In this document: one piece after another, positions 1 to 33,555 of the stretch
Numbering within the stretch: position 1 is the stretch's first letter
Layout: each line of letters begins with the position of its first letter
From: a virus
Virus record (IMG/VR): IMGVR_UViG_3300036985_004066
Coordinates: 1-33,555 of that record
Length of the DNA stretch: 33,555 nucleotides
Strand: one strand, 5' to 3'
Notes under the pieces: generated by a model
Databases searched by the model: none
What the model saw: the letters and a program-made list of their open reading frames with translations, nothing else
What the model was told of the DNA's origin: nothing
Program-made: the position numbers and the translations under genes

Positions 1-144
1 ATCGCGCAGACCATCTCACAGGCTCCTGAGATTCAGGACTATGTGAAGTTCCAAGCAGGCATTCAATACTTGCAAGGTTCCGACACATTTGCCAAGTGGG
101 GTATCCCGCCGACGCTGTTCGGCCTTGCAGATGTTGTCGTTGAG
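1..144. repeat. Left copy of the 144-base terminal overlap
   Basis: Bases 1-144 match 33412-33555 except at position 127 (G here, T at 33538). Both copies lie in the same frame of the major capsid gene, so this is most simply the redundant end of a circular or permuted assembly rather than a physical phage terminus. The mismatch changes one capsid residue (Ala here, Ser in the other copy). Confidence 0.93.
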
Positions 145-14499: not shown

Positions 14500-15009
14500 T
14501 CACTTGAGGTTCAAGCGTGTCCCCCTCTCTCCGAGCGCGGCTCCGCTCACCACCTCGCCCGCTTCGAGAGCCGAGCGAATCGCAACCTTGTCGATAGTGA
14601 TTGTGACCGTGGGAACCCGAAACTGCTCAGGTAACTCCGACTCGTCGCTGATAATGATCGGAGTTGCCCCGCCGTTTTTTACGACCGACAGGGAGAATCG
14701 AGCGGTTTGAATCTTGGGCTGACCCGTTTCCCGCATGGCAGTCATCACCGCCAGTCGGAGTCGTGTCGCGAGCGATTCATCGTCCTGCGCGAGTTTTTTC
14801 ATGCGGGCGGACTCCTCGGCCCGTCCCGCCGCTCGTGTCTCGCAGGAGCGAATGAGCGCAGCGTAATCGTCCACCTTCGCGTCAAACGACTCAATGAGTG
14901 CGCTCGTGTGTTCCGCAATGGCCGCAGCCGCCTCGTCGGAGGCGTGGCCAAAAATGTCGAATGCTTCCGTCAGGGATTTCAATTGTTCCGTAATGGTGTA
15001 GAGGCTCAT
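14500..15009 (-). CDS. Siphovirus Gp157-family protein
   Basis: The protein has 169 residues. The N-terminal LYTITEQLKSLTEAFD, the coiled middle ('AARAEESARMKKLAQ'-like), the Met-rich segment LRLAVMTAMRETGQPKIQTARFSLSVVKNG and the C-terminal strand-rich part ending AALGERGTRLNLK are the usual order of the Sipho_Gp157 family (PF05565). These proteins sit beside single-strand annealing proteins and are thought to aid phage recombination or replication. It is directly downstream of bet in the same unit (27-base gap) and immediately before a terminator. The ribosome site is weak (AAGAAG), so coupling is possible. Confidence 0.82.
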   Translation of the reverse strand: MSLYTITEQLKSLTEAFDIFGHASDEAAAAIAEHTSALIESFDAKVDDYAALIRSCETRAAGRAEESARMKKLAQDDESLATRLRLAVMTAMRETGQPKIQTARFSLSVVKNGGATPIIISDESELPEQFRVPTVTITIDKVAIRSALEAGEVVSGAALGERGTRLNLK

Positions 15010-15036: not shown

Positions 15037-16044
15037 TCAAAAAGGGAGGTCATCGTCATTGATCTTTGCGGCGGCAAGAATCTCCTTGCGCCGAGGCGGC
15101 TCGCGGATCAAAGTCGCCTCGTAAAAGCCAACATCGTTCCACCTCCAAGTCATTTCGATGGGTGTGTCGGCGGACACCCCTTGCGCTCGCGTTGGGGTCG
15201 CAGACACCCAAGCTTGCCCATGCACGGGGTGAATACACAGCATCGCGTAACCGTCTCCGCGCTCAACGATTTTTTCCACCCTGATCACATCGGTTCCCGT
15301 CAATGGCCAGTTCTGCATCGCCTTTGCCTTGGGCTTCGCGACCACCGTGACAGCGGGCTTTGCGTCAACTGCCTTGACCGCAGGATCCGCAGAAAACATC
15401 GACGGGTCATGCTTCCCGCTCGACTTGACTGGCGGGGGCAAAATAAATCCGTCGGTGCGCGTTGAAACTTCAACGGGTGCAACCGCCGCAGGTTCCGCCT
15501 GCGACATTTCCTCGCTCGTGTACAAGCCCGACAACTCCGCAGGGAAGGATTTGCGGAGCGCAAGAGCCTCGCTGCATTTTGCAATCATCAGGCTCGGCAT
15601 CTTTGCCCACATCGTGGACACCCCATGCTTGTTGGTTTGCACATATTCGCGCCACAGGGCAACCGCGTACAGCGGTGCGGTAAATCCCTGCCGCATCACG
15701 CCTACGCGAGCCGCAGTCGGTGGAGCGGTGTCGAGCCACACATCCACCCATTTTCCGTCGGGACCGCACCAATACGGCCCGTCTTGCCCTGCGTACTCTC
15801 CTGATCGTTGCGCGACGAGTCGCGCACCATCAATTGAAATCTGCGTCTGCATGATGTTGCGATTCTCGCGAGAGTCCCACCGTTGAATCGCGTAAATCTG
15901 CCGAGCAAACGGGTCTAGTCCTGTTCGGTCACATATCGCAGAAAACAACCTCAGTTCATCCGCGTTGCAACCCTTGGCGATTGTGCGCGAAATCAAATCA
16001 ATCTGCTCGTGAGACAGTCCTGTCTTGTGCGTGACGATATCCAT
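15037..16044 (-). CDS. bet: Phage recombination protein Bet (Red-beta/RecT superfamily) with SSB-like acidic tip
   Basis: A 335-residue protein from ATG 16044 (AAGGA upstream; longer starts lie in the promoter). Residues 25-180 carry the Bet signature: [70 protein letters not shown] and [26 protein letters not shown]. Bet anneals complementary single strands during recombination-dependent replication. Residues ~190-245 are a Pro/Ala/Lys linker. Residues 246-320 form an extra small domain not needed in typical Bet (about 260 residues). The chain ends DDDLPF, closely like the DDDIPF tip of bacterial SSB. No partner exonuclease is seen. Confidence 0.93.
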
Positions 16045-16061
16045 TGCGTTCCTTTTGTTTG

Positions 16062-16114
16062 GTCGGGGTAATTCCCGACGGTCCAAATGTATCCTACATG
16101 GTCATAGGATGCAA
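16062..16114 (-). promoter_or_regulatory. Leftward promoter cassette, copy 2, drives bet-gp157
   Basis: Read leftward: -35 TTGCAT (16114-16109), a 17-base spacer with CCTATGACCATGTAGG, -10 TACATT (16091-16086), six bases, then hairpin GTCGGG-AATTAC-CCCGAC (16079-16062). The -35 box and spacer overlap the last codons and the TAG stop of the upstream TGT-like gene. Confidence 0.83.
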
Positions 16115-16717
16115 ATCAGTAGGACAAAACAGAAGTTTTTCAGGCAATCGACTGCGCTCAATAGCCTCAAGCATATGGTCATACCGCGAAACGCCCGTCC
16201 CGTCACAAGTGTCCGCGCCAAGCGAATCGAACCAGTTGAACCTTTTTGCGGTGTTTACTCGCCCGATGTGGATGTGTTTTTCCATGATTTTTCCCGCCCT
16301 CACTAGATCGGCAACGGCGGAACTGTCTTTCCACGGATCGACTCCGCCAATAAACAAGCATTGAAACTCGTCCCACGGAATGTCTAGATCCTCAATTCCG
16401 TTCTGTGCAACCAACGCAACGGGAACGCCCGTTGGAATCCATAGTGATCGGCGTTTGAACAGTTCAAGCGTTAGGCGAGCCGCGCCGACAATGTCGGGAC
16501 AAGTAACGAACAGGCAACGAGCCATTGAGGGTTCCTCTCGCGCAACCAATCTCCGAAATGCGGCAGCATTAAATCGCGAAAACGCGCCATTGTCGATAGC
16601 AAACTCACCACCCCAATTCGCATAGCGGGTAAGAGGGGTCAGCAATTGCCCCCGAACTAACTCTGATGCGTTTTTGCGCTCAACCTCTTTTGGTGTCTTG
16701 TCGATCAGATAACGCAT
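16094..16717 (-). CDS. TGT/DpdA-like TIM-barrel protein (queuine tRNA-ribosyltransferase-like)
   Basis: The protein has 207 residues, with AAGGA seven bases before the ATG. Motifs in order are [11 protein letters not shown] (about 39-49), [18 protein letters not shown] (69-86), [19 protein letters not shown] (99-117), [11 protein letters not shown] (119-129), [13 protein letters not shown] (147-159) and [12 protein letters not shown] (166-177). These resemble compact phage proteins related to queuine tRNA-ribosyltransferase and DpdA, which swap guanine for a 7-deazaguanine in nucleic acid. If active, it would modify phage DNA against restriction. No queC/D/E or folE genes are present, so precursor must come from the host. 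The substrate is uncertain. It overlaps RusA by 13 bases. Confidence 0.55.
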
Positions 16718-17163
16718 TTTTGTTCCTTGATCGTGATCCGTTTAGGTATTTCAAAAACGGAAACAACCGCGCCCTGCGGCTCGCCATCAAGACACCACCG
16801 ACGCTCTACCGAGAGTTTTCCCACCTGTCGGTCGTTGCGGTACGCGATTCCTGCAAGGGCATCACACACGGCTCTCGCGAGTTTGTCGCAATCGGCGTAG
16901 CGCGGGAGGACTGGCGCAGATTTGCGGAGAAACCCGCTCGTGGTGAAGTGCGAGGCGGGCCGCGCCCACCTCGCAACTATCCTGACTTCGACATCCTCCT
17001 CATACATCCTCACGCGAGCGGCAACCGCAGAGGCCGCAATGACGGCTCTCCACGGCATAACGCGCTTAGATGCCTCCACCATGATGGTGCGTCCTGAGCG
17101 AAGCTTGACGAGGTTTTTTGACCCCTGTGGCGCGGGAACCCCGTGCGCGAAAAACTCACACAC
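16705..17163 (-). CDS. rusA: RusA-type Holliday junction resolvase
   Basis: A 152-residue protein from GTG 17163. This start is chosen over ATG 17226 because GGAGG (17175-17171) sits seven bases upstream, the protein then begins with the typical RusA strand (CEFFAHGVPAPQGSK), and the length matches the family. C-terminal YADCDKLARAVCDALAGIAYRNDRQV holds the metal-binding acidic pattern (D91, D93, D101, D111). RusA cleaves four-way junctions symmetrically, here probably resolving Bet-generated recombination intermediates before packaging. GTGTGTGA overlaps the upstream stop by eight bases. Confidence 0.87.
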   Translation of the reverse strand: MCEFFAHGVPAPQGSKNLVKLRSGRTIMVEASKRVMPWRAVIAASAVAARVRMYEEDVEVRIVARWARPASHFTTSGFLRKSAPVLPRYADCDKLARAVCDALAGIAYRNDRQVGKLSVERRWCLDGEPQGAVVSVFEIPKRITIKEQKCVI

Positions 17164-17506
17164 CCTTGAGCCTCCACACACGAATGATCCTGCCGTGAGT
17201 TGAAACTCGGGCGGACTTTTGGACATCTCCAGTCCAAACGAACTCCTTTCGGAATACGGATCCCGCTGCGTTTCCGAGGTCTGAGTAATCCAATCCCCGC
17301 TCCGCCATTCGGCGAGCGACACAATCGCTCGTGACGCAGCCCCGCAGGAGACACACAGCGCGAGCGTGAGCCTTGGCAATTGCGAGTAGAGACATTCGTG
17401 CTGCGCTGCTTGACGCGAGCGCAAGCCCCTCCTCCATGCGTCGGTCGGCCTCTGCAAAATCAAACAGCGTCCGAAGGTTTGCGCCCCTGTTAAACGACTG
17501 TTTCAA
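17156..17506 (-). CDS. Possible winged-helix-like phage protein
   Basis: A 116-residue protein from a TTG at 17506, which has a near-perfect AGGAGGTGA site immediately upstream (17510-17517). Residues ~25-80 are helical with SDCVARRMAERGLDYSDLGNAAGSVFRKEFV, then STHGRIIRVWRLKG at the C-terminus. This helix-helix-wing arrangement, ending in a HGRxxRVW motif, is common in phage proteins next to resolvases and may bind DNA. It overlaps the CsrA-like gene by 17 bases and RusA by eight. The call is by pattern only. Confidence 0.6.
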   Translation of the reverse strand: MKQSFNRGANLRTLFDFAEADRRMEEGLALASSSAARMSLLAIAKAHARAVCLLRGCVTSDCVARRMAERGLDYSDLGNAAGSVFRKEFVWTGDVQKSARVSTHGRIIRVWRLKGV

Positions 17507-20128: not shown

Positions 20129-20893
20129 ATGTCCGACCCCTTACTCCTTGTCGAAGCAATGCGTGTTGCAAGCCATCTCAAGAGGGCGTTGTTTTCGACC
20201 GTTGTCGAATCGCCCACGCTGCACCACCACTACACGACTCCCATGCTGTGGGAGAAAACAAACCTGTTCTACGAGGCCGACGAGTTCATTCGCCACCACG
20301 GATACAGCGCGTTGTTTTTTGGCGACCCGTACCCAACGATGGACATCGACGGGTACTCGTATTGGAGCAACGGGAACCGAGAACTCGCGGGAACCAGTAT
20401 CCGCCGCGAGGCCAAAAATTACGAGGAGGTCGATCCATGCTTCGCGCCCTCTCCCGAGTTTGAAGAGACGGTCAATGCGCGGGTGTCCAAGATTATCCGA
20501 GGACGGGTCTTGCAGGTCGGAATCCCTGACAGCGGGTGCATTCTTGATCATTTTAGGATTCCCGCCGCGTCATACACTTGTATCGACACGCGGGCTATGG
20601 CTATTCAACAGGCGCAGTTTGATTACGGAGCCTATGACGGATGTTTCATTCGGACTTCGTTTGAGGATCACTACCGAGACGGCTACGACACGATTCTTGC
20701 GCTCTTTGGGTGCGCGGATCAGATTGGGATGGAACTTGTAAACCGAATCCCGTTCATGCTTCGCAGGGGGGGCATTGCGATCCTCATGTTTCACGCCGAC
20801 CGAAACGGTAACGATCAAACGCACGATGACTACGAGCATTTTGTGGTGCGAAGTTGGTACGACTTGTCTGCCAAAGAGCGGGGGGTCGGATGA
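20129..20893 (+). CDS. Class I SAM-dependent methyltransferase-like protein
   Basis: The protein has 254 residues. The C-terminal half has the Rossmann-type landmarks: motif I VLQVGIPDSG (127-136), acidic strand-2 end YTCIDTR (149-155, D153), a motif IV-like YDTILALFG (186-194) and LRRGGIAILMFH (211-222). The N-terminal 110 residues are aromatic-rich and probably form substrate-recognition or accessory structure. The substrate is unknown; DNA is plausible because it is coupled by ATGA to a DNA cytosine methyltransferase. Motif I lacks the usual GxGxG, so an inactive or divergent enzyme is possible. The ribosome site is weak. Confidence 0.6.
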   Translation: MSDPLLLVEAMRVASHLKRALFSTVVESPTLHHHYTTPMLWEKTNLFYEADEFIRHHGYSALFFGDPYPTMDIDGYSYWSNGNRELAGTSIRREAKNYEEVDPCFAPSPEFEETVNARVSKIIRGRVLQVGIPDSGCILDHFRIPAASYTCIDTRAMAIQQAQFDYGAYDGCFIRTSFEDHYRDGYDTILALFGCADQIGMELVNRIPFMLRRGGIAILMFHADRNGNDQTHDDYEHFVVRSWYDLSAKERGVG

Positions 20894-22557
20894 ATAAAAA
20901 TCAGCCTAGCGTCGGGTCGATGTTCGCAGGAATTGGAGGTTTTGACCTCGGATTTGAGCGAGCAGGGTTTCGTGTTGCATGGTGCATTGAGTTCAACAAA
21001 CACGCACAAGCTGTATTGCGGAAACGATTTCCACTCGCCAAGATTTACGGCGACATTCGCGAAGTTGATCCATTGACGCTTGAGAGCGTTGATGTGATCT
21101 GCGGCGGATTCCCATGTCAGGATGTTTCGGTCGCAGGTAAACGCGCAGGCCTCGCAGGAGGCAGAACAGGACTATTCTTTGACGCAATTCGCATTGTTCG
21201 ACAACTACAACCTCGATTGCTTATTCTTGAAAATGTCGTTGGAATGCTCTCAAGCAATAATGGACTCGACTTCGCCGCCGTCCTGCGTGAAGTGGGAGAA
21301 GGCTGGAATTGTGAGGAGGTCGCGTGGCGAGTTTTGGACAGTCAGTATTTCGGAGTGGCCCAACGACGCAATCGTGTGTTTATTGTCGGAGGTGTTGCAG
21401 CAGGACACGCCGAGAAAATACTTGCTTTCGGAGAAAGCGTGTGCAGGAATCCTCCACCGCGCCGAAAGGCGGGGCAGGACGCTGCCGCCGATCCTCAAGC
21501 AAGCTCTACAGCAAGTTGCAGGGGTTACGGGGGAAGTAGTCAGTCCGTCAGCGACACCGTGACGAGCAAAAGGCACAAGGGCAGCGGCGGTCCTGCGGGC
21601 AGCGAGTGCGGGCTGTTCGTTGCTGAGATTCCAATGTATCAAGAGGTAGTTGGCCCGCTGTTGGCAGTTGATTACAAGGGCATCAACAACCAGTATGTTC
21701 ACGCGGAAAAGGTGATTGTCACGCCTAATACTCTTTCGCCTGTTGCCGCTGCGTTTCGTAAATCACGACGCGCACAAAGCAGCACCGACTGCGAGACTTG
21801 GGTTGATGATGGCCTCGCCAATACTCTGAACGGATTTGACACAGGAGACACGCGCACAACTCACGCTGTTTGTGCAATTCCAATCCATGATCAAGCAACT
21901 CGTTGGGCAGGGAAAAACGGAGAAAAATCCGATGGCAAGGGAAACGGGTTTGGTATTGGAAAAGATGGCGATCCATCGCCAACGCTGACACAGGGCGACA
22001 AACACGCGGTTGCCGTCATTCCTTTTTGTATCAATATGGGTGGAGATAGAGGTGGTGCTAGTGTTTCAAGGGGCAATATGAGTTACACATTGACAACAAA
22101 TGAACCTCACGCGGTTGGCATATTTCCTATCGATCTCCGTAATGCAACACGCAACGCCGATAAACTTGACGCGCAAAACCGTCAAGGCTGCGGTATCGGG
22201 AACGAGGGTGATCCATCGCCTACGCTGCTTGGGCATCACACGCCCACAGTAGCTCTAACTGCCCGCGAATCAGGGCAAGGCTATTGGATGCAGGACAGTA
22301 TTTCGGGAACCCTGCGAGCCGAAGGAGAGAATCGGCCAAGCAGGCCAAGCAATGTTATCTGTAACACCTCAATGGTTGTCCGCCGCCTCACCCCTGTTGA
22401 ATGCGAACGATTACAGGGATTTCCCGATGGATGGACAGACATTGGGACGGCTGAAAAGCCTACAAGCGATGGAAACAGATACAAACAATTAGGGAACGCG
22501 GTCACAGTCAATGTTGCTGAGTGGCTAGCTAGACGGGCTATGGATTGTCTACAATGA
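20890..22557 (+). CDS. DNA (cytosine-5) methyltransferase
   Basis: A 555-residue protein from ATG 20890 (ATGA overlap). Motifs: FAGIGGFDLGFERAG (12-26, SAM), GGFPCQDVS (72-80, nucleophile C76), LILENVVG (111-118), QRRNRVFIVG (158-167), and C-terminal RRLTPVECERLQGFPDGW and QLGNAVTVNV (motifs IX/X). The target-recognition region (~187-495) is about 300 residues long and made of degenerate repeats of the form 'g.gd.sPTLt....HaVav', as seen in several phage enzymes, which may allow multiple specificities. It modifies phage DNA, probably for protection from host restriction. No cognate nuclease is present. Confidence 0.95.
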   Translation: MNKNQPSVGSMFAGIGGFDLGFERAGFRVAWCIEFNKHAQAVLRKRFPLAKIYGDIREVDPLTLESVDVICGGFPCQDVSVAGKRAGLAGGRTGLFFDAIRIVRQLQPRLLILENVVGMLSSNNGLDFAAVLREVGEGWNCEEVAWRVLDSQYFGVAQRRNRVFIVGGVAAGHAEKILAFGESVCRNPPPRRKAGQDAAADPQASSTASCRGYGGSSQSVSDTVTSKRHKGSGGPAGSECGLFVAEIPMYQEVVGPLLAVDYKGINNQYVHAEKVIVTPNTLSPVAAAFRKSRRAQSSTDCETWVDDGLANTLNGFDTGDTRTTHAVCAIPIHDQATRWAGKNGEKSDGKGNGFGIGKDGDPSPTLTQGDKHAVAVIPFCINMGGDRGGASVSRGNMSYTLTTNEPHAVGIFPIDLRNATRNADKLDAQNRQGCGIGNEGDPSPTLLGHHTPTVALTARESGQGYWMQDSISGTLRAEGENRPSRPSNVICNTSMVVRRLTPVECERLQGFPDGWTDIGTAEKPTSDGNRYKQLGNAVTVNVAEWLARRAMDCLQ

Positions 22558-23036
22558 CTAAGGCTGTGAAGAAGACCACCCCGCTGCCCGCCAAACCCTC
22601 TAAGCCCCGAGGGGTAGGGGCAGGGTCTAAGCTTAAACCCCGAAACCTCATCAAGGTTCCCGCCAGTTCAACAGACAAACCGCCGTCGCAACTCGCCTTA
22701 GACCTTGCAGACCCACACCGCAAGCGCGGGACATACCTGCTACTCCAACGAGCCATCCGAATTGCGATGGATGTCCCCTATGACGCGATGGTGCTTGCCT
22801 GCCAGACCGCGATTCAAGATCTAGCTTCAGCCGATGACCGCACCCGATCCCGCGCTCGCGAGTTCCTGTTTCGCGCTCAGGATTCAGGAGTTGGAGCCGC
22901 TCTCGGACTGGATCGAATGATGCGGCTCGATGATGGAACCGCGACAGAGAATGTCGCTATAGCCTCAATTACCCCCGACGCGCTTGCCGCTGTGGTGCAA
23001 ACGCTTCGGCAGTCCACGCAGGGACTCGCAGGATGA
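22554..23036 (+). CDS. Probable small terminase subunit
   Basis: A 160-residue protein from ATG 22554, in an ATGA overlap with the methyltransferase, and itself overlapping the large terminase start by four bases. The N-terminal 55 residues are basic and Pro/Lys-rich (DNA-contact-like). The remainder is helical (RGTYLLLQRAIRIAMDVPYDAM near residues 57-78), ending in a Thr/Ala-rich tail. Position, size and composition fit a DNA-recognising small terminase. No classical HTH is obvious, so the assignment depends on context. Confidence 0.55.
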   Translation: MTKAVKKTTPLPAKPSKPRGVGAGSKLKPRNLIKVPASSTDKPPSQLALDLADPHRKRGTYLLLQRAIRIAMDVPYDAMVLACQTAIQDLASADDRTRSRAREFLFRAQDSGVGAALGLDRMMRLDDGTATENVAIASITPDALAAVVQTLRQSTQGLAG

Positions 23037-24484
23037 CCCCACAACAGGCGATCCTAAAGGCGAGGGCAAACCCTCTCGCTTTTATCGCGCTCGCTATGGG
23101 CCGTCCTATTGGGCCTATCCACGCCCGCCTCGTGTCCTACCTGCTTGATGATCGGGACTGTTACGCCGAATTACCTCGCGGACATGGCAAAACGACCACG
23201 GGGGCGTTGACGATCTCGTGGCTGCTTGGACACTACCCCTCGATCCGCGTCAAGATCCTCGGATCCACCGATGTTGAATCAGCAAAAACCGCCAGTATGA
23301 TCCGAGAGATCATTGAAACCGACCGCTACCGAGCGGTGTTCCCGAACACCCGAATCCGCGCTGCGGACACCTCAAAAACGAGGTGGCGACTCGAAGGCGC
23401 ACGAATGGGAGCGCGTGACGCGACCCTTGAGTCAATGGGAATCATGGGTCGAGCGGGTGGGCGATTTGACCTGCTATGGACGGATGACATCAGCGACCTG
23501 CGTAACGCTGTGTTGATCCCTGCCGAGCGTGACAAAGTGAAGGATGCCTATAACAGCAATTGGATGCCAATGCGCGATATCGCAGCGGAGGACGCGGTAT
23601 TTCGTCCTCGCGTGTGGAACACGGCAACCCCCTACCACACCAACGACATCACGGGCGACCTTCGCAGGATTCACACCGAGGCAGGAACCATCCTGCGTTT
23701 GCCTTGCACCACGAACGGAGGCGAGCGGATTAGCCCGTGGCCCGAGGTCTTTTCTCACGAGCAATTGCAAGCGCAGTACGAGCGCATGGGAGCGATGGCA
23801 TACGCCCGAGCCTACGAACTCGTCCCGCTCTCGTCCGACTTGCTGATCTATCGGCCTGAATGGTTTGCGTACTACCGCCCGTCGGAACTACCAAAGCAAA
23901 CCCGCACCGTCGCGGCAATTGACTGGGGATACGGAAAATCGGAACAAAGCCGATCAAATCCCGATTACAGCGTGTGCATAGTGGGAGAGGTGGACGATCA
24001 GCGGAGGTTGTTCCTAACCGATGTCCTGCGGGTGCGCGAGCCGTTTCCCGTGTTTGCCAAGATGGCCGCGAGCCTGCTTGAGCGGCGCGGCGTGTCCGTA
24101 GTCCTCGCGGAAGCGAACGGGCCACAGCGAGGGATTTTTGACCAGTTCGGAACGATCACTCGGTTCCCGATGGTTGCCGTTGAACGCCATAGCGACAAGC
24201 ATCTGCGAGCCGCAGGATCACAGCCATTCGTTCAGGGCGGCAAGTTGTTTTTTCCTACCGATCACAACGGCACAATCCTTCCTGCGTTCCAATGCGTGAC
24301 GGACGAAATGACCGCGTTCCCCGCCGCCGCGCACGATGACACGGTCGATGTCGTAGTTGACCTCTGCGCGGAAGCAACTCGCGGATCGTTAACAATGTCG
24401 GACAGGTCGAAATCTAGAATCCGCGCACCCGAAGCGGAGAAGCTGTTTGGCAAGACCTCAACTCGCAAGCCCTTCTTCGCGTGA
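23033..24484 (+). CDS. terL: Large terminase subunit (packaging ATPase/nuclease)
   Basis: The protein has 483 residues. Walker A ELPRGHGKTT (46-55), Walker B FDLLWTDD (145-152), a coupling motif around NTATPYH, and an RNase H-like nuclease with AIDWGYG (D297), LAEANG (E360) and AHDDTVDVVVD (D435/D436). It pumps DNA through the portal and cuts it at headful or site-specific ends. It overlaps the small-subunit gene (ATGA). Normally the portal gene follows directly; here a 3.9-kb unusual gene intervenes. Length is typical for Mu gp28-like and related TerL. Confidence 0.95.
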   Translation: MTPQQAILKARANPLAFIALAMGRPIGPIHARLVSYLLDDRDCYAELPRGHGKTTTGALTISWLLGHYPSIRVKILGSTDVESAKTASMIREIIETDRYRAVFPNTRIRAADTSKTRWRLEGARMGARDATLESMGIMGRAGGRFDLLWTDDISDLRNAVLIPAERDKVKDAYNSNWMPMRDIAAEDAVFRPRVWNTATPYHTNDITGDLRRIHTEAGTILRLPCTTNGGERISPWPEVFSHEQLQAQYERMGAMAYARAYELVPLSSDLLIYRPEWFAYYRPSELPKQTRTVAAIDWGYGKSEQSRSNPDYSVCIVGEVDDQRRLFLTDVLRVREPFPVFAKMAASLLERRGVSVVLAEANGPQRGIFDQFGTITRFPMVAVERHSDKHLRAAGSQPFVQGGKLFFPTDHNGTILPAFQCVTDEMTAFPAAAHDDTVDVVVDLCAEATRGSLTMSDRSKSRIRAPEAEKLFGKTSTRKPFFA

Positions 24485-24613: not shown

Positions 24614-27600
24614 ATGTGTACAAACAAAAACAACTTCGCAGCGCGTGGAACCCAAACCAAACTTTTTTCGGGCGTGACAGAAATCCCCGCTAATCAAGTC
24701 CAGAATGTGTCGGATGTGCAGTTTTTCAGACTGTTCCCACAAAGGGTTGACGGGTACACGACGCAGTCGGGAACCAAAAAAGAACCTCTGCTTGACAACA
24801 CAATGTGGTCGCAGTCTAAGTGGCGCGAGGTGTACAAGAATCAGGCCCTTGGCGCGTTGGACCCGAACCGAAAGTGGGGGCAGAAGGAAGCCGAAGAGGT
24901 GACCTCTATCGGTGTGGATTCGTGGGTTGAGCGCAAAATGCAGGATTTGCTCAACAACGGTGTCTCGTCCGCGAGATATTTGATTGTTCGCGGCTCACCG
25001 CCGCAACCAATTGACCGCGTTATTCGATGGCAGCAAACAGAAAAGCCGACCATCTGCGGATCGAAGTGCCGAAGCGCGAAGGGTCCGAATTGCGACTGTA
25101 TATGCGAAGGCAAGTTTCATGGCTCGGGATCTGTTTTTGCACGATCAAAGGATTCAATCACAATGACCCCCAAAAAATCACCGCATTCGCGCTTTGCTCG
25201 CAGTAGCGCAAGCACAAAAGCCTTGCACACAATCTACAACTACCTTGAGGTAGTGCGTACTGAGTGGGGTGAAGATCGTGGCATCGAGGCGGGCCGCGAA
25301 TTGCAAAAGGCCGCAAAGGCCATCGCCGCCGATCCATCGTCGCAGGACATCGCGGCAGAAATCGCGCAACTGGTGCGCGTTGCAACCACCGACAAGAGTT
25401 ACGACAAGCGTGACCGTGCGCTTGACGATCTTGAATCCATCATCAATCAAGCGCAGTCGCAACACGCACGGCGCAAAGGAAAAACATCAATGGCTCGAAT
25501 CTCCTTGGCAGATGTAAACAAAAAGGTTGCTGAGTATGCAGCAACTGGAGCAAGTGCTAAAGCCGTAAGTGATTACAAGCGGCGTTTGCTTGCCGAATAC
25601 CGATCACAGGACGATGTGTATATCTCCTTGTCAGATGTGAACAAAAAGGTTGCTGAGTATGCAGCAACTGGAGCAAGTGCTAGTGCCGTAAGTGCTTTCA
25701 AAGCCGATTTGCTTGTTCAATACCGAGGATCAAACGAAGGTTTTTCCCGCACTCGCAAAGGAAAAACATCAATGGCACAAGCAGATTTCAAGGTTGGTGA
25801 CAAAGTTCATCTTGGATTTGCCTCGAAAGGGGCAGTAGGATTTGATGGAGTTATCACAAAAATTGATAGCGAAACGGTGTACATTCAAAGCCCTGAGATT
25901 GGTCAATATGGCCCACGAACTTTTAAGGGTCCAGTCAGATTCCTCAGTCATGGGTTCGCGGGATATTACACAGAGCATTCCCGCAGCGGCGTGAAATCGC
26001 TGATGCAAAAAGAGTATGTGTTGTGGGGAGTTCCCGAAGGAGAGACTGATCAACTCCACGCCAAGGTGCTGTCCACGCAAGCCAAGACCCCAAGCGAGAT
26101 GGATGAGATCAAACGACGCGCAAGCGCAGCGGGTTGGCACTCGTTCCGCGTTCAAATCCTTGACCCCGACAAGCCAACACGAATGTTTTCCCGCAGCGGC
26201 TCAAGGTCGCGCATGGGATCAGGCGACCCGTACATGGAAAACAAGGATGTCAAGGTTCGCAAAGGCGTGCGTAGCGACACCGTTGCGTTTGTCGGTCAAA
26301 ACGGAGGCGGCGGGGATTTTTACGCAGGCTTAGAAATCCGCCCACACAGCGGCAATAGGTTTGACAATCAACTCTTGTGGATGAAGCACAGTTACGCCAC
26401 CGCCGCCGCTGCCGAGCGTTCAGCAATCAAGAAGTTTGACGATCATGTCGCAAGAGGAGGATATTCCCGCAACGGCGCAAAGGCAACCTTTGAAGCAGGC
26501 GACAGTTTCATGGTCGAGGGCTATGTCGGCGAAATGATCACAGGAGGACGCTCCGCTCGCACAATGGAGGAGGCAGAGCATTACGCCAACGCGATGCTTG
26601 CAATGATCAAGCGCAACGCAGGAGGCAAGCCCGTGAAGGTTGAGATCCAAGAGATTAAGGCGTACAGCCCACAAGGAGTAATCAAGACTATGCACTCTCG
26701 CGGCAAATCTGAAATCTCAACGCGCTTCGGTTCCATCGCAAGCAAGCTCGGATTCCTCCCCGACTCAATCACCGAGTCCAACGGTGTTGCCACTCTCAAG
26801 TTCGCGCAGGCTGATGGCAGCGCGGGACGATGCGCGTTTGCGATGATTCGCCCGTTGACTGGGATTGTCGGATCGGATCGTGTTACCGCGACCGACACCG
26901 AAGTGCGAGTGCAGTTCGCTCGACGCGATCCCACCAAAAGTGGTGTCTCCCTTGACCCATACACCACCGAACAGGGAATTGAGTTACGCGACGGCACAAT
27001 GGTTGATGCCAAGCGTGTCAACGGACGGTGGTCGATTCCGTCACTTCCTGAAGTGGGTGGAAGTAGAACATTCCAGAGCCTCGTAGATATGGTCACCGCG
27101 TGGGAGGGTAGATCTACAGCCTCTCGCAGCGGCGGCAAGGCTACCTTTGGTAGCGATGTCATCCTTGAAGACATTGGCGAAGATCAGGTCCGTGCAACCG
27201 CTCGTGTTGAGGGACGATCCGCAGGCAGTTTTGACGGCCCACGAAGCCAGTCCGCACAACTGCTTTTGAAGGCTCTCAAAATTGCAGGTCAGGGTCACGA
27301 AGTTTCGTCAGGCGTGTACGACATGACTCACATCACGCTGAACGATGCGGCTAAACGAGCAATGCCAAAAAGCGCGATGATGTCTCGCGGCGGCAAGGCT
27401 GAGTTTGCGATGGAGGTGGGGGACACCGTTAAGGTCAAGCAAGGTGGCAAGACCGTGAGCGGGAAAATCATCAAACTTCCAAACGCAACCGACCTTGAAA
27501 ACGGTCAGTACTTGATTGAGTTGCCAAACCAACTTTACAACGATGGCCGAGTTACTCGGGAACTGGTTCCCGCTAATCGGATACTGATGTCTCGCGCTCG

Positions 27601-28474
27601 CTTCGGTCAGGAAAACCAACAAATCGCTGACGGCGTAGCGCAACTACTCTCGGTGCTTGGCTTACCGAGGATGGCGGAAGGGGCGAAGATGACAACCGAC
27701 GCGGACACGCTCAGGCGGTACATCAATGTCGCTCGCAGGCGGATTAGGGGATCCGATCAATCCGACCGATTCAACACCTTGGCTGACAAGCTTGAGCGGA
27801 TGCTGATGTCTCGCGGCGGCGGCAAGGCGGAGTTTGGTGAAATCGGGTCAGGCGGCTCGTATGTCTCAAACGCGCTACACCACATCAGCAACGACATCGC
27901 TCGCGGCGACAAGGATATGGCCAAGGCGATGATGCGAAAGCTTGCAGAGCGAATCGGCAAGGAATCACACACAGACGCTGAGTGGCATCAGTACCTGTCG
28001 CTCGCTCGGTCTTTGGGGTTCAGCGACAACGCTGTTGCAGGATTTAGTCGCGGCGATGAAAAGTCGGAATCGCTCAAAAAATTGCTCTCGCAGAATGTCT
28101 CCCGAAGCAACCTTGCTCAGATGGAAAAAGTCGTTGACACGGCGATTACCTACGCAAAAAAAGTTGGAGACGATGAGTTGTTAGATCTTGCGGAAGAGAC
28201 TGGCATTGAGTGTTCCGCGTTGCGGTCAAGAGCCTCCCGCTTAGGCACAAAGACACGGTTTGAAATGGACCAAACAACTCATCGACACCTGATGACTTGG
28301 ATTGACAACCAACTTGGAAACCGAGCAGGCAGCGCGGGCTACATCGCCGACAAAATGATCGGGACATTCAACGATGATCCTGAGCATTGGGAGAATCAGG
28401 GATGGAGCAAGGTTTTCTCGGCCGCAGGTTTATCGAGCGCAGACCTCAACAACCCTAAAAAGGGTTGGGACTGA
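24614..28474 (+). CDS. 1286-residue multi-module protein with repeated [F/Y/H/M]SR linkers (putative phage polyprotein)
   Basis: A head domain (1-175) ends with a Cys knuckle (KCRSAKGPNCDCICEGKFHG). It is followed by a chain of small modules bounded by F/Y/H/M-S/A-R at residues 175-177, 191-196, 285-287, 377-379, 455-457, 525-527, 617-619, 694-696, 768-770, 836-838, 923-925, 992-994, 1065-1067, 1144-1146 and 1207-1209. Spacers are mostly 63-92 residues. Many linkers read SRxGxKAxF. Two modules (295-335, 336-376) are tandem copies; those at 388-445 and 930-980 look SH3/KOW-like. No catalytic motif or membrane segment was seen. The gene lies between terminase and portal. The start is uncertain because 24614 lacks a ribosome site; in-frame ATGs with AAAGGA sites occur at 25163, 25490 and 25772. 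Alternative: a structural protein with flexible linkers. Confidence 0.75.
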   Translation: MCTNKNNFAARGTQTKLFSGVTEIPANQVQNVSDVQFFRLFPQRVDGYTTQSGTKKEPLLDNTMWSQSKWREVYKNQALGALDPNRKWGQKEAEEVTSIGVDSWVERKMQDLLNNGVSSARYLIVRGSPPQPIDRVIRWQQTEKPTICGSKCRSAKGPNCDCICEGKFHGSGSVFARSKDSITMTPKKSPHSRFARSSASTKALHTIYNYLEVVRTEWGEDRGIEAGRELQKAAKAIAADPSSQDIAAEIAQLVRVATTDKSYDKRDRALDDLESIINQAQSQHARRKGKTSMARISLADVNKKVAEYAATGASAKAVSDYKRRLLAEYRSQDDVYISLSDVNKKVAEYAATGASASAVSAFKADLLVQYRGSNEGFSRTRKGKTSMAQADFKVGDKVHLGFASKGAVGFDGVITKIDSETVYIQSPEIGQYGPRTFKGPVRFLSHGFAGYYTEHSRSGVKSLMQKEYVLWGVPEGETDQLHAKVLSTQAKTPSEMDEIKRRASAAGWHSFRVQILDPDKPTRMFSRSGSRSRMGSGDPYMENKDVKVRKGVRSDTVAFVGQNGGGGDFYAGLEIRPHSGNRFDNQLLWMKHSYATAAAAERSAIKKFDDHVARGGYSRNGAKATFEAGDSFMVEGYVGEMITGGRSARTMEEAEHYANAMLAMIKRNAGGKPVKVEIQEIKAYSPQGVIKTMHSRGKSEISTRFGSIASKLGFLPDSITESNGVATLKFAQADGSAGRCAFAMIRPLTGIVGSDRVTATDTEVRVQFARRDPTKSGVSLDPYTTEQGIELRDGTMVDAKRVNGRWSIPSLPEVGGSRTFQSLVDMVTAWEGRSTASRSGGKATFGSDVILEDIGEDQVRATARVEGRSAGSFDGPRSQSAQLLLKALKIAGQGHEVSSGVYDMTHITLNDAAKRAMPKSAMMSRGGKAEFAMEVGDTVKVKQGGKTVSGKIIKLPNATDLENGQYLIELPNQLYNDGRVTRELVPANRILMSRARFGQENQQIADGVAQLLSVLGLPRMAEGAKMTTDADTLRRYINVARRRIRGSDQSDRFNTLADKLERMLMSRGGGKAEFGEIGSGGSYVSNALHHISNDIARGDKDMAKAMMRKLAERIGKESHTDAEWHQYLSLARSLGFSDNAVAGFSRGDEKSESLKKLLSQNVSRSNLAQMEKVVDTAITYAKKVGDDELLDLAEETGIECSALRSRASRLGTKTRFEMDQTTHRHLMTWIDNQLGNRAGSAGYIADKMIGTFNDDPEHWENQGWSKVFSAAGLSSADLNNPKKGWD
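25472..25776 (+). repeat. Direct repeats around duplicated module, each with an in-frame ribosome-site-like ATG
   Basis: A 23-base stretch (CGCAAAGGAAAA then ACATCAATGGC) occurs at 25472-25494 and 25754-25776. Between them two tandem units of 123 bases (25499-25621 and 25622-25744) encode near-identical 41-residue segments beginning ISL(A/S)DVNKKVAEYAATGASA. Both 23-base repeats place AAAGGA eight bases before an in-frame ATG. The arrangement shows recent duplication inside the module chain. Confidence 0.9.
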
Positions 28475-28480
28475 TCACGC

Positions 28481-29965
28481 ATGGCCGATCTCAAAGACCC
28501 TAATCCCCTTGTCAACGGCCTAACCCCCGAGGCGCGTCCACGCAAGCCGCTACCCGCGCCTGTTGACCGTGGGCAAACCGCTCCGCTTGCAACCTCGGTT
28601 GAAGTTCAACGGTCATTCTTTACGACAGCCGACAAACTCCTGCGAAACAGCAGCCTCGCGTACAGGCTGAACCCGCAGTATCAACAGATGATGCGGGCAG
28701 ACGCGGACATTGAGGGTGTCCTGCGCTCATTGCAGGTCACGCTCGCGAGCCTCGAATGGGGTGTTGTATGCGAGGATAAGACCGACGAAAAGGGAGTCGA
28801 ACTCGCCAGTCGTGTCCGAAGGGTGTTTGCGGAGATGCCGCGCCGAAGTGACTTTGTTCGAGCCATGCACGAAGCGGTTTGGTACGGGAATGCTGCCTGC
28901 AATCTCGTATACGAAAAGGACAAGCGGCTCGGCTTCAAGGTTAAGGAGTGGTATCCGTTCCACCCCGATACGCTCGCCTACGACCAACGAGGCAACCTCG
29001 CAATGCGCGTCGGCTCGGAATACTCCGCGCACGGATCATCGCAACAGAACATCGGATTTGACGCTCGCGTTCACATCTTCAATGAAGAGGAACGGCAGGC
29101 GGTCATCCTTCACCGCGTGTTCATCAACGCGCCTGACTTCAACGACCCCTCCTCAAGCGAGTCGATCTATCGCGGTGTCGGAGCGCGTGATGTCTGTTGG
29201 TTTATGTGGCTCGCGAAGCAGGAGATCCTGCAAGATGCCATCACCTACGCCGAACGCTATGCGATGGGCATTCGCATTGGTCGCTACCCGCTCGGGCAAG
29301 ATCAGGGCCGCGAGATGATGGAGAATGTCCTCGCAAACCTCACCAACGACAACTCGGTGTTGCTTCCGATGAGCGGAACCGACAAGCTATACGATGTCGA
29401 AATCCTTGAGCCGAACGCAGGACGAGCAACGGTTTTTCTTGAACTGGTGAACTGGTTCAGCGGGAAGATCAAAGAGAGCATCGTCGGTCAGAACTTGTCC
29501 TCAGAGTCAGGCGGAACGGGTATGGGATCGGGGGTCGCGTCACTCCACGCCGACACTCTTTCTCGCATCATCCGCTACCACGCCGACGCGCTCGCAGACT
29601 CAATGACATTCGACTTTGTTCGGGTCGTAGCCCAAATGCTTGGCGCGTCAGCCGATGAGGCGGCCTGCCTGCGATTTGAGTTTGCTCCCGAGCGACCCGA
29701 TCCCAAAGAGCGGCTTGAAGCCATCAAATCATTCGTCGAACTTGGCGGCAAGGTGTCAGTCCGCGAGGTGCGCGACCTCCTCGGATTGTCAGAGCCACAG
29801 GCGGATGAACCAACCCTCGGAGGGTCTGCGAGCGTTGCCGCTGCGAACGCAGATTCTCCGCAGGATCAAATCGCAGGATGGCTCAAAGAGTCTCCTGCGC
29901 CCGCCGAAGGGGAGAAGCCCGCCGACGGCGCACCTCAAGCCTTTTCGCGGCGATCATGGTGGTGA
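28481..29965 (+). CDS. Portal protein, Mu gp29-like (DUF935 family)
   Basis: The protein has 494 residues, starting six bases after the multi-module gene. The pattern TTADKLLRNSSLAYRLNPQYQQMMRADADIEGVLRSLQVTLASLEWGV near the N-terminus, the central WYPFHPDTLAYDQRGNLAM, and the helical SGTDKLYDVEILEPNAGRATVFLELVNWFSGKIKESIVGQ belong to the DUF935/Mu gp29 portal family. It forms the dodecameric DNA channel and docks the terminase. The C-terminus is Ala/Pro-rich and ends QAFSRRSWW, carrying the same FSR tripeptide as the neighbouring polyprotein linkers. Confidence 0.87.
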   Translation: MADLKDPNPLVNGLTPEARPRKPLPAPVDRGQTAPLATSVEVQRSFFTTADKLLRNSSLAYRLNPQYQQMMRADADIEGVLRSLQVTLASLEWGVVCEDKTDEKGVELASRVRRVFAEMPRRSDFVRAMHEAVWYGNAACNLVYEKDKRLGFKVKEWYPFHPDTLAYDQRGNLAMRVGSEYSAHGSSQQNIGFDARVHIFNEEERQAVILHRVFINAPDFNDPSSSESIYRGVGARDVCWFMWLAKQEILQDAITYAERYAMGIRIGRYPLGQDQGREMMENVLANLTNDNSVLLPMSGTDKLYDVEILEPNAGRATVFLELVNWFSGKIKESIVGQNLSSESGGTGMGSGVASLHADTLSRIIRYHADALADSMTFDFVRVVAQMLGASADEAACLRFEFAPERPDPKERLEAIKSFVELGGKVSVREVRDLLGLSEPQADEPTLGGSASVAAANADSPQDQIAGWLKESPAPAEGEKPADGAPQAFSRRSWW

Positions 29966-31110
29966 GTGGACCATCACAGACGGATAGCGGGTGGACCGCC
30001 CTCGTCGCATATGGCGAGGATTCGTACCGCCGTGCCATTGCGGCACAGGTTGAGGGCAAGGATCCCACCGAGTACTGGGAAGCGTGGAAAACAGCGACTG
30101 CCGCCCTACTGCTTGCCTCATGGGCCGCAGGTGCGTTGACTTCAGCCCGTGCGTCGGGTGTTCCTCTCCCCGCGATTGCCCCACCGTCTGCGACATTTGC
30201 CCGCGACATTGACACGCTTCGATACGAACCGCCGTCGCGAACCGAGATCTCAAGCATCACGATGCAGTTTGCGGGTGGACCCGCCCGCGAGGTCATTGAG
30301 CGTTTCATCCGATTGCTGCCTCTAACCCGAGAGAAGTGGGAGTCGCTGATTGCTCACGCGCTCCAGTCCGCAGGAGAGGTACGGGATGACGAAGCCGCAA
30401 ACGCGCTGTCCCGAATCATGGTTCGATCACCCGACCTTGCAGACCTGATTCGGGGAAAGGCGCAAGCTCGGGTTGAGGAACTGCCCCCTAACGCCTCTGA
30501 CGAAGTCAAAAAGAGGCGCAATCCCGCCGTACAGGCGGCGGTGCAAGGGTCATTTTTTGTCACGGGTATGACGATGCAGCAGGTTGAAACCTCAAAAAAC
30601 ATCCTTGCCGCAGCGATTCGGGGGGATGTCACCGTGTCGGTGGCGGGAAAAAAGGTTGAGGAAATGGGGGTGGGAGATTTTGTCGCGCACACGATCCTTG
30701 AAACCGCCACCAATCTCACCGAGGCTCGACTCGAAACGGTCTACCGAACAAACATCAACCGAGCGCAGTCGCAGGGTCGCCTAGACATTTGCCGAGATGA
30801 CCTTGTCAAGAAGTTTGTCCCGTTGATGCGCTTCCGATCAACCAAGGATCCAAGGACCCGAGACACGCATCGGGCGTTCAACGGGTACATCGCTACCGTT
30901 GATCAGATTGATCAAATGGGGATCCCGACTCCGCTCGGGTTCAACTGTCGATGCTCGTGGACACCTATCCCGATTTCCACAGCCGTAAACGAGGGGCTGT
31001 GCGACGAAGACGGGAATCCTGATTTCACGGCGATCAAGGTGAAAAACGGGGATCGGCAGGCGTTGGTTGATAATGGGACGATCCCTGATGCAGGGTTTAT
31101 TTCAGGGTGA
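29956..31110 (+). CDS. Minor head protein, Mu gp30/F-like (SPP1 gp7 family)
   Basis: A 384-residue protein from ATG 29956, overlapping the portal stop by 10 bases; GTG 29962 (GTGA overlap) is an equal alternative. The C-terminal hallmark is visible: LETVYRTNINRAQSQGR, MRFRSTKDPRTRDTHRAFNG, then GIPTPLGFNCRCSWTPI, the family's R-x-x-x-R, D-x-R-T and GFNCRC elements. The N-terminal 120 residues are Ala-rich helical. These proteins are packaged in low copy near the portal and may be ejected with DNA. Order portal-F-protease follows Mu. Confidence 0.87.
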   Translation: MVVSGPSQTDSGWTALVAYGEDSYRRAIAAQVEGKDPTEYWEAWKTATAALLLASWAAGALTSARASGVPLPAIAPPSATFARDIDTLRYEPPSRTEISSITMQFAGGPAREVIERFIRLLPLTREKWESLIAHALQSAGEVRDDEAANALSRIMVRSPDLADLIRGKAQARVEELPPNASDEVKKRRNPAVQAAVQGSFFVTGMTMQQVETSKNILAAAIRGDVTVSVAGKKVEEMGVGDFVAHTILETATNLTEARLETVYRTNINRAQSQGRLDICRDDLVKKFVPLMRFRSTKDPRTRDTHRAFNGYIATVDQIDQMGIPTPLGFNCRCSWTPIPISTAVNEGLCDEDGNPDFTAIKVKNGDRQALVDNGTIPDAGFISG

Positions 31111-31128: not shown

Positions 31129-32325
31129 ATGACCACTCCATCGCACAAGATCACCGATGACGGCGACAAGGTTGTAATACACAACCTTGAAGTTTTTTGC
31201 GCGTATGACGCAAAGATCGACGGAGACAACGATGACGAGCTGAAAAAGTTTGACAACGACCGCGTCCGCAAAATTGTCGTTGCGACCCGCCAGTACATGG
31301 CCAAGGGATCATTTCCGCGCCTTGTGGTAATGCATGAGCGTGACGGAAACGAGCCAAAATCAAGCGTGGGTCGATTCACTCAAGTGAAGTACGAGGAACG
31401 CAACGGTGTAGCCTACATTGTTGGCGACTGCGAGGTTGAGCGAAGCGTGTTTAACAAACTGCTTGCCACCAACGCATTTCCGCGCCGATCAGCCGAGATT
31501 TGGCAGGATCACAATCACCTCTCGGAAGTCGCGTTGCTTGGGCGCGAAACCCCACGCCGCCCGCTTCCTGACACTCATTTTGTTCGCACAGGCGAACTCG
31601 TGACATTTAGCCGACCGCTTCGCTTTGACATGGGAACTGTCGGCGGAGGACTCTCCACATTTGTTCCCACTACAAAGGAAAAATACAACATGAACGATGA
31701 CAACGACCTGCGCGGCGAACTTGACGCGCTGAAGGCCTCGATGGACGAAATCGACGCAAAGTTTAAGAAGCGTTTTGAGGCCGATGACTCGACCGATGAA
31801 AAGGATGAAATGTCAGCCGATGACATGATTCAACAGCAGTTCGCGGAAAACGAAGAGGACGAAATGTTTTCGCACAACGAGGGCGAAGACGAAACCGAGG
31901 AAGAAACCGAAGAGGTATTTCCTGCTTCGCGCTACAGCCGTCCCCGTGAGGGTGGAGACTTCATCGCGATGCGCCGAGAAAACACGCGGATGTCGCGTGA
32001 ACTCAATGCGATGCGCTCCGAACTGGCCCGCGAAAAGTTCAGTCGCGAACTTGACGCAATGGAAACTGAGGGGTATCGCATTCCCGCAGACCGTCGCCCG
32101 CGCCTCATCGCTGAACTCGCAGCGAGCCGCAACCCGTCCGACCTCATCGACACTTGGCGCGACCTATTTGCTCGCGATCCCGTGGGCATCCGTATCGACA
32201 TGAGTCGATCCGCGCTGCCAAAGTCCGATCTCGATCCCCGTCAAGTTTCAGACATGGTCCGCGAGTTCGCGGGCCGTCCTGAAGAGTTCACCAAAGCCAT
32301 CAATTCCCGCATCTCGAAGCGGTAA
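31129..32325 (+). CDS. Mu I-like prohead protease with C-terminal scaffold region
   Basis: The protein has 398 residues. Residues 20-155 resemble phage prohead protease domains: VVMHE with H69, VGDCEVERSVFNKLL, then FPRRSAEIW (S121) and VALLGRETPRRPLPD; H69 and S121 are the likely catalytic pair. Residues ~188-398 are charged and coiled, with a very acidic block (217-263), typical of scaffold. Tripeptides FSR (160-162, 304-306), YSR (269-271) and MSR (288-290, 358-360) are possible self-cleavage sites. It shapes the procapsid and is then degraded. An in-frame scaffold-only start lies at 31690. Confidence 0.82.
   Translation: MTTPSHKITDDGDKVVIHNLEVFCAYDAKIDGDNDDELKKFDNDRVRKIVVATRQYMAKGSFPRLVVMHERDGNEPKSSVGRFTQVKYEERNGVAYIVGDCEVERSVFNKLLATNAFPRRSAEIWQDHNHLSEVALLGRETPRRPLPDTHFVRTGELVTFSRPLRFDMGTVGGGLSTFVPTTKEKYNMNDDNDLRGELDALKASMDEIDAKFKKRFEADDSTDEKDEMSADDMIQQQFAENEEDEMFSHNEGEDETEEETEEVFPASRYSRPREGGDFIAMRRENTRMSRELNAMRSELAREKFSRELDAMETEGYRIPADRRPRLIAELAASRNPSDLIDTWRDLFARDPVGIRIDMSRSALPKSDLDPRQVSDMVREFAGRPEEFTKAINSRISKR
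31690..32325 (+). CDS. In-frame internal scaffold product (Mu gpZ-like) within the protease gene
   Basis: ATG 31690, codon 188 of the protease gene, is preceded by AAAGGA at about 10 bases, a better site than the one before the full-length start. It begins MNDDNDLRGELDALKAS, exactly where the acidic coiled scaffold region starts, giving 211 residues. Mu I/Z and lambda C/Nu3 use the same nested design to make excess scaffold over protease. Expression is inferred, not shown. Confidence 0.6.
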   Translation: MNDDNDLRGELDALKASMDEIDAKFKKRFEADDSTDEKDEMSADDMIQQQFAENEEDEMFSHNEGEDETEEETEEVFPASRYSRPREGGDFIAMRRENTRMSRELNAMRSELAREKFSRELDAMETEGYRIPADRRPRLIAELAASRNPSDLIDTWRDLFARDPVGIRIDMSRSALPKSDLDPRQVSDMVREFAGRPEEFTKAINSRISKR

Positions 32326-32744: not shown

Positions 32745-32781
32745 TTGACCAAACCCCTTCCCTCAAGAAAGAGGATTTCAA

Positions 32782-33555
32782 ATGGCATATACAGTTGTGG
32801 GTGGTGGTCTTTCGACCTACATCCCGTCCACCAATGACCTCGCGACAGGTGCGCTCCAAGTGGAGTTCACGCGCTCGGTCAACAGTTTCGCTCTCTCGCG
32901 CTACGCGCAACTCGTTCCAACCACAAAAATGACGGGGTTTTACCTGCGTCAAGACAACGCGGACAATGTCCGCGTGACCGATGTGAATGAGTTCGCGTGG
33001 CCTCTCGGCAACGACCGCCCTACGGGCAAACAAAACGCATTTGATTTTGTCCAGTACACGACGGCCCGATTCGGCTTTCCGTTCTACATCCCGCAGGAGT
33101 CTGCTGCTCAGGCCTCGTGGGATGTCGTGGCACAACACGCTCGCTCCAAGGCGCAATTGGCGATGACTCGTCGCAGCATGGCGGCATCGTCGGTTCTCAC
33201 GACTGTCGGAAACTGGGGTACGAACTACACTACCGCAGCGGGTTCTAACGGACCTTCGGGTAGCGGTTATACCGCAACAGGAACATGGTCGAACTCGTCC
33301 ACCGCTGACCGATTCATCCAAAAATCAATTCAGCAAGCGATGCGCTTGGTGTCGTTGAGTTCGGGTGGCGCGGTTAACCCTAATCAGTTGATCCTCGTGA
33401 TTTCGCCAACCATCGCGCAGACCATCTCACAGGCTCCTGAGATTCAGGACTATGTGAAGTTCCAAGCAGGCATTCAATACTTGCAAGGTTCCGACACATT
33501 TGCCAAGTGGGGTATCCCGCCGACGCTGTTCGGCCTTTCAGATGTTGTCGTTGAG
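32782..33555 (+). CDS. Major capsid protein, N-terminal part (continues at position 1)
   Basis: The gene starts at ATG 32782 with GAGGA seven bases upstream and runs off the contig end after 258 codons. The frame continues at 145 through the 144-base overlap (33412 equals position 1), for about 349 residues in total. The N-terminal region includes STYIPSTNDLATGALQVEFTR and a Phe/Tyr-rich stretch near residues 90-105; no long scaffold-like delta domain is visible, in line with a separate scaffold upstream. Strong ribosome site, preceding decoration gene and following terminator fit the most abundant virion protein. Confidence 0.87.
   Translation, partial: MAYTVVGGGLSTYIPSTNDLATGALQVEFTRSVNSFALSRYAQLVPTTKMTGFYLRQDNADNVRVTDVNEFAWPLGNDRPTGKQNAFDFVQYTTARFGFPFYIPQESAAQASWDVVAQHARSKAQLAMTRRSMAASSVLTTVGNWGTNYTTAAGSNGPSGSGYTATGTWSNSSTADRFIQKSIQQAMRLVSLSSGGAVNPNQLILVISPTIAQTISQAPEIQDYVKFQAGIQYLQGSDTFAKWGIPPTLFGLSDVVVE
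33412..33555. repeat. Right copy of the 144-base terminal overlap
   Basis: This copy equals 1-144 except T at 33538 for G at 127. See the left copy; together they show that the contig closes on itself within the capsid gene. Confidence 0.93.

Follow-up and report, generated by a model that had tools for sequence, protein, structure and literature searches.

A cassette-array ORF between terminase and portal

The window, that is, the whole stretch of DNA that we analysed, is the 33,555-nt IMG/VR virus record IMGVR_UViG_3300036985_004066. It contains an open reading frame (ORF) of 1286 amino acids (aa) that encodes small modules joined by short linkers, which we call a cassette array. The original prediction, made from the letters alone, had read this ORF as a putative polyprotein of about 14 modules strung on [F/Y/H/M]SR linkers and had placed it between terminase and portal. 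Matches of the upstream gene to phrog_38 (terminase large subunit, TerL) and of the downstream gene to PF06074 (Mu-type portal) bear out the position; MuF and a putative head protease/scaffold gene follow. We find that the ORF is above all an in-frame cassette array that recombines, and that 'polyprotein' alone describes it incompletely. Taking all the evidence together, we consider it likely that the locus holds a hypervariable array of in-frame cassettes with a recombining linker, probably encoding variable head cargo. The genes of the region are:

23033..24484 (+), TerL, phrog_38, 7e-59
24614..28474 (+), cassette-array ORF, 1286 aa, free of internal stops
28481..29965 (+), portal, Mu type, PF06074, 5.5e-47
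29878..31110 (+), MuF head protein, PF04233, 2.7e-13
31129..32325 (+), putative head maturation protease with a scaffold-like C-terminal part, BFVD fold match to a capsid maturation protease, 9.8e-7

The tripeptide [FYHM]SR occurs 10 times in the ORF, against a mean of 0.93 in residue shuffles (none of 5000 shuffles reached 10), and the longer pattern [FYHMA][SA]R-x(0,3)-K[AST]-x-[FM] occurs 7 times where shuffles lead one to expect 0.017. These counts are far above the shuffle expectation; chance is therefore excluded, and the linker chain is real, at the coordinates predicted for it. A 10-residue linker profile, derived mainly from the arrays of other phages, identifies six sites in the ORF and none in the six frames of the remaining window. 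Degenerate junctions such as GKTSMA and MSRARF also occur in the ORF. The chain is modular as predicted, except that residues 1-196 are no module: they form a conserved N-terminal domain, for which the fetched loci hold 19 distinct homologous stretches. The parts of the ORF are:

24614..25201 (+), conserved N-terminal domain, residues 1-196, CxxxC..GPxCDCxCxGxxHG motif; alignment A1/A2
25202..25471 (+), module 1, helical; no homolog found
25487..25750 (+), module 2, tandem duplication within, ISL[AS]DVNKKVAEYAATGAS; no homolog found
25751..25984 (+), module 3 (KVGDKVHLGF); homologs in the L002, L125, L035 and L074 arrays
25976..26005 (+), linker HSRSGVKSLM, profile score 15.8
25985..26194 (+), module 4 (QKEYVLWGVPEGETD); 7 homologs, identity 67-93%
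26186..26215 (+), linker FSRSGSRSRM, profile score 11.9
26195..26470 (+), module 5 (GSGDPYMENKD); homologs in L012, L030, L102
26462..26491 (+), linker YSRNGAKATF, profile score 23.1
26471..26701 (+), module 6 (GDSFMVEGYVG); 13 homologs; predicted beta-beta-alpha-beta-beta domain
26702..26923 (+), module 7 (EISTRFGSIASKLGF); homologs in L005, L002
26924..27124 (+), module 8 (RDPTKSGVSLDPYTTE); 4 homologs
27119..27148 (+), linker ASRSGGKATF, profile score 20.8
27125..27382 (+), module 9 (GSDVILEDIGEDQ); homologs in L005, L016
27383..27595 (+), module 10 (AMEVGDTVKVKQGG); no homolog found
27596..27814 (+), module 11 (ENQQIADGVAQLLSVLG); homologs in L002, L005, L042
27806..27835 (+), linker MSRGGGKAEF, profile score 19.4
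27815..28051 (+), module 12 (EIGSGGSYVSNALHH); homolog in L042
28052..28237 (+), module 13 (DEKSESLKKLLSQN); 5 homologs
28232..28261 (+), linker ASRLGTKTRF, profile score 12.7
28238..28471 (+), module 14, C-terminal (EMDQTTHRHLMTWID); 9 homologs

The array family in other viruses

Searches with the whole protein, and then with its N-terminal domain alone, gathered relatives from other viral contigs (L001, L003, L006, L008, L009 and L012-L015). The arrays recovered there are 930-1300 aa long. Almost every array begins with MC[x]N..., continues with the CxxxC..GPxCDCxCxGxxHG domain and then runs into linker-joined modules of 60-100 aa, and every array ORF is an uninterrupted reading frame. Array length differs widely between phages. 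The ends are often fixed and the middle variable, with N-caps such as MSNTRKEIAARLGFAA and C-caps such as KIRTLIAEGKPQDQAVAIALDMKRRGEL; conserved N-caps also include one beginning MSNTRKEIAARLG.

The DNA pattern for RPGAKAxF is present in at least 120 stretches of viral contigs, and the array family exceeds the set that we sampled. In that set, 103 distinct linker ORFs yielded 542 modules in about 137 single-linkage families, 66 of them singletons; greedy clustering of the internal modules alone gave 145 clusters, as the number of families varies with the clustering method. Across ten near-complete genomes, the array is located in the head-morphogenesis cluster, and many phages have a second array directly after MuF. 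Adjoining the second array in several genomes is a protein family of variable length (f17, 170-630 aa), which in L158, L162 and L165 lies between that array and the protease gene. Small free-standing proteins encoded on unrelated viral contigs and on one Nocardia contig (L018-L029) also have the CxxxC..GPxCDCxCxGxxHG motif.

Exchange of modules at the linker

Nearly all of the 542 module occurrences sit in a new context. For 68 pairs of modules (nucleotide identity of 80% or more across 85% or more of the length), the neighbours on both sides are unrelated, and in some of these pairs identity reaches 100% (over 225 bp at the longest). The mean identity at 125 left and 86 right junctions falls from about 0.95 within the shared module to about 0.25 outside it. 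On the left, the drop occurs in the 9 nt before the SR codons, and on the right about 24 nt into the following linker; because identity is lost inside the linker, the breakpoints must lie there. Contig G015 (L161/L162) contains a single such difference: its overlapping ends, 95.4% identical across 1.8 kb, represent one locus in two haplotypes, which differ by exactly one linker-flanked in-frame module of 237 bp, or 79 codons.

We compared array turnover with portal identity, using only arrays upstream of the portal and retaining identical ORFs. Where portals are 95-98% identical, a mean of 17% of array modules are common to both phages, and 23 of the 38 pairs have none in common; in the four pairs whose portals are more than 98% identical, 96% of modules are common. 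Identical arrays of 4, 6 and 10 modules occur in separate records (L002/L003, L046/L086, L030/L146). Cassettes are thus gained, lost and swapped as whole units; the breakpoints fall in the linker, the frame is kept, and modules are exchanged at the linker far faster than the remaining genome changes. As a side observation, the public record of G015 merges two strains, since its ends represent two haplotypes of one region.

The linker as DNA

The linkers had been described as alike also at the DNA level, and this proved correct both in the window and in its relatives. The consensus is about 27 bp long, TCC CGC CCC GGC GCG AAG GCG NNN TTT/ATG, encoding SRPGAKAx[F/M]; the window has the peptide form S-R-[GSN]-G-x-K. 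When linkers were located with a pattern that fixes Arg as CGN and leaves third bases free, their codons were much more uniform than other codons of the same ORFs: Pro CCC.92 vs.28, Ser TCC.79 vs.21, Gly GGC.94 vs.45 and Arg CGC.91 vs.42. Another set of 353 linkers was picked purely on DNA distance (four mismatches or fewer); all 353 are direct and in frame 0, with no antisense copy. Their changes from the consensus comprise 184 synonymous and 249 nonsynonymous codons, whereas homologous modules differ by 1262 synonymous and 539 nonsynonymous changes. From this contrast we conclude that the modules evolve as functional proteins, under purifying selection, and that the linker is kept largely as DNA.

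Some phages have linker variants of their own. The codon after CGC is CCC in the consensus, ACG in L003, GCT in L015 and AGC or GGC in the window, and for this reason homology-driven exchange appears to fit the variants better than one fixed recombinase site. Linkers are 0.896 identical within arrays and 0.868 between them, a small excess. The window encodes candidates for the enzymes of such an exchange:

14500..15009 (-), Mu Gam-like DNA-end protection protein, phrog_253, 1.6e-28
15037..16086 (-), RecT/Bet-like single-strand annealing protein, phrog_2780, 2.6e-65; candidate for linker exchange
16705..17463 (-), RusA-like Holliday junction resolvase, phrog_140, 1.8e-16

Genome G006 encodes an Erf-like annealing protein. 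For Redbeta, 23-27 bp of identity suffice, while RecA needs 31-34 (PMC3945230), and the Redbeta minimum matches the linker length. In the route that we propose, each cassette encodes a single complete small protein (about 60-100 aa) and has the linker at its borders, and homologous recombination or annealing at the linker would be driven by a RecT/Bet- or Erf-type annealing protein that the phage itself encodes. Judging from the genes present, the exchange is probably catalysed by these phage recombinases.

Several other roles for the linker were considered and set aside. An internal translation start at each linker is not supported, as unbiased counts (F 166, M 93, H 14) give a start codon in only some of them; where M stands in the linker, it may be left over from captured genes. 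The sequence FSRRSWW at the portal C-terminus, a candidate for a common processing site, is not conserved in relatives. A search for the linker motif outside arrays gave two scaffold matches only, and equally weak matches arise in shuffled proteins. The two are ASRPGKADTF and YARPGAADTF, in L157:856-2193 (G012) and L165:6544-7722 (G010), where they are flanked by an acidic stretch and a coiled coil within the scaffold part of the head protease.

What the modules are

Homologs of 12 of the 15 window segments occur in the arrays of other phages. Residues ~597-712 of the L012 array match the product of a free-standing gene in Agrobacterium phage Milano and in Rhizobium phages over its whole length, from the start Met to the final residue, so cassettes can be whole captured genes. 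The search for free-standing counterparts, which had been proposed as a check, thus found one array module complete in isolated phages; the modules of the window, L014, L079 and L009 arrays had no match in isolated phages. Structure prediction, which covered module 6 of the window, gave a compact beta-beta-alpha-beta-beta fold (pLDDT 88) preceded by a linker that is modelled at low confidence and disordered. This model argues that linkers do not lie inside one continuous fold, the arrangement named beforehand as evidence against separate modules. Recurrence elsewhere, the free gene and the compact model all point to autonomous small domains.

The fold of module 6 has no significant match in PDB, and a PDB sequence search found no known structure for the modules. 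No Pfam, NCBIfam or PADLOC domain was found in any array scanned, the only hits being to PHROGs of unknown function. The statement that no described family has this design therefore held in the Pfam, NCBIfam, PADLOC and PDB sequence searches.

A possible role as head cargo

The identity of the head protease is proposed from its fold match to viral models. The fold also matches several prohead proteases among these models; the gene has no PDB fold match and no Pfam match. A module resembling phrog_2859 is found in arrays. G013 and G015 also carry it as an N-terminal fusion to the head protease, and Vibrio phage 1.214.O has it inside a protein whose gene lies between those for MuF and the major capsid protein. 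In the relatives examined, the stretch VGGGLST[FY][IV]P[ST]T, or a near variant, is common to the protease/scaffold protein (in the window, residues about 170-182 of 31129-32325) and the N-terminus of the major capsid protein; such a motif might serve both proteins as a site of cleavage or binding.

Because the array lies near the portal, MuF and the head protease, and by analogy with T4 internal proteins and polyvalent proteins, its product is most likely variable cargo that is carried inside the head and delivered into the host. A beads-on-a-string product would be made from the head operon, enter the prohead and be ejected with the DNA; its modules would supply changeable host-takeover or counter-defence proteins, and the adjacent head protease might cut the chain at the linkers. 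We infer packaging, ejection, linker cleavage and counter-defence from this setting. Fast module replacement under purifying selection is an outcome expected of host-virus conflict. A fuller scheme can be offered only tentatively: the linker would be a recombination seam and also a processing or packaging signal, and small genes would be captured, traded by an annealing recombinase, packaged, cut by the protease and ejected as an arsenal. If this is true, the head operon keeps an expandable, frame-preserving set of many proteins, co-translated as one chain.

Alternative explanations

In a classical polyprotein, selection at the protein level would maintain the linkers as protease sites, and each module would be released as its own protein. 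The autonomous modules, the disordered linker in the module 6 model, the conservation of linker R, G and K as residues, a head protease (by fold) in the same operon, and the linker-like motif in the scaffold part of the protease in two genomes all fit such a scheme. A protein-level site, however, would need mostly synonymous linker changes, and the ratio seen is 184:249; the residue following R varies among phages (P, T, A, S, G); the scaffold motif is confined to those two genomes and has equally weak counterparts in shuffled proteins; and a protease site alone leaves the DNA-level uniformity and the breakpoints unexplained. We therefore regard a polyprotein pure and simple as possible but doubtful. 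What stands of the original reading is the autonomy of the small domains, while its linkers are recombination seams conserved largely at the DNA level; linker cleavage is compatible with the cassette array as an added step. An uncut structural or scaffold protein, in which modules serve as spacers or head-interior structure and are exchanged neutrally, agrees with the head-operon position, the repeated architecture and the linker-like motif in the G010 and G012 scaffolds. It is improbable, because the modules are unrelated and fully replaceable yet under purifying selection (1262:539), and because array length is highly variable where a repeated fold would be expected to be kept.

Site-specific recombination of the integron or shufflon kind, with the linker as recombinase site, would account for a short, uniform site and for the exact exchange of units. 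Against it, the linker differs between phages (CCC, ACG, GCT or AGC after CGC), the copies are all direct with none inverted, and no dedicated recombinase was identified beside the array in the ten genomes examined, whose annotation is not exhaustive; we give it little credence. The least probable explanation is mis-joining of short reads at the repeated linker. The relatives are all metagenomic contigs, the repeats are about 27 bp long and the ends of the G015 contig are two haplotypes, as an artefact might have it. Yet every array ORF is open, arrays of 4, 6 and 10 modules recur identically in separate records, the repeats are shorter than the reads, and the N- and C-terminal caps stay fixed in place.

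Some results weigh against the cassette array as we interpret it. Only 5, 1 and 12 of the 353 linkers have a nonsynonymous change at the R, K and G codons, respectively; these codons resist amino-acid change, so the linker peptide is constrained as well, with an exposed joint, a packaging signal and a cleavage site as candidate roles. None of the modules matches an anti-defence or enzyme family that is already known. All contigs are metagenomic, so single exchanges could be imitated by chimeric assembly at repeats, and our searches found no cultured relative.

Comparison with known systems

The internal proteins of T4 (IPI, IPII, IPIII and Alt), with their capsid-targeting sequences, are a precedent for head cargo (PMC9026906). 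Like the arrays, they are small head-cluster proteins in which a short conserved peptide is attached to unrelated variable bodies, and the gene set differs among close relatives (PMC9026906). The T4 proteins have separate genes and one N-terminal signal cut at L/I-x-E, whereas array genes are fused in-frame in one ORF, with a linker between all modules that is conserved as DNA. Phage polyvalent proteins, as the main text of Iyer et al. (2017, PMC5512222) presents them, are very large, multidomain and mosaic, are encoded near portal/MuF and are proposed to be injected. The arrays resemble them as large mosaic multidomain proteins close to portal/MuF. Polyvalent proteins are defined there by known, largely enzymatic domains, of which none was recognised in the arrays scanned, and that main text describes no repeated linker or cassette seam, nor does the word 'linker' appear in it (PMC5512222). 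As for nearness to portal and terminase, the arrays lie between TerL and portal or after MuF.

An integron has an integrase, and its cassettes are separate genes whose attC sites are structured. They are gained, lost and reordered at a short common site, as array units are, but the latter are fused in one ORF, and their site is coding, apparently without a common structured form. Array sites vary between phages and none is inverted; the integrase search covered only part of the genes. In shufflons (R64) and the p15B Min system, a site-specific recombinase inverts segments and so changes one C-terminus. Here, too, short repeats within a coding region yield protein variants; array repeats, in contrast, are all direct (353 direct, 0 antisense), and many modules coexist. 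Literature searches found no description of such in-frame cassette arrays, and we know of no described system that fuses whole small genes in one frame via a coding recombination linker.

The arrays mean that viruses can join unrelated small genes in one frame and exchange them like beads, with the frame intact. The driver is a short repeat in the coding sequence, close in length to the minimum that phage annealing proteins need for pairing, and the result is a store of some 140 small protein families, uncharacterised and under purifying selection, with turnover above that of core genes. Injection of the proteins, processing of arrays by the head protease and the rate of swapping in phages can be tested now.

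Other features of the window

The major capsid protein gene is interrupted by both ends of the window (1-420 and about 32770-33555). The ends overlap, with IAQTISQAPEIQDYVKFQAG at either end and small differences between the copies. Because of this overlap and the gene that spans it, the contig probably represents a whole genome that is circularly permuted. A C5 DNA methylase (20854-22557) is long, at 567 aa; both its ends are conserved, and a middle stretch of about 150 aa matches few families.

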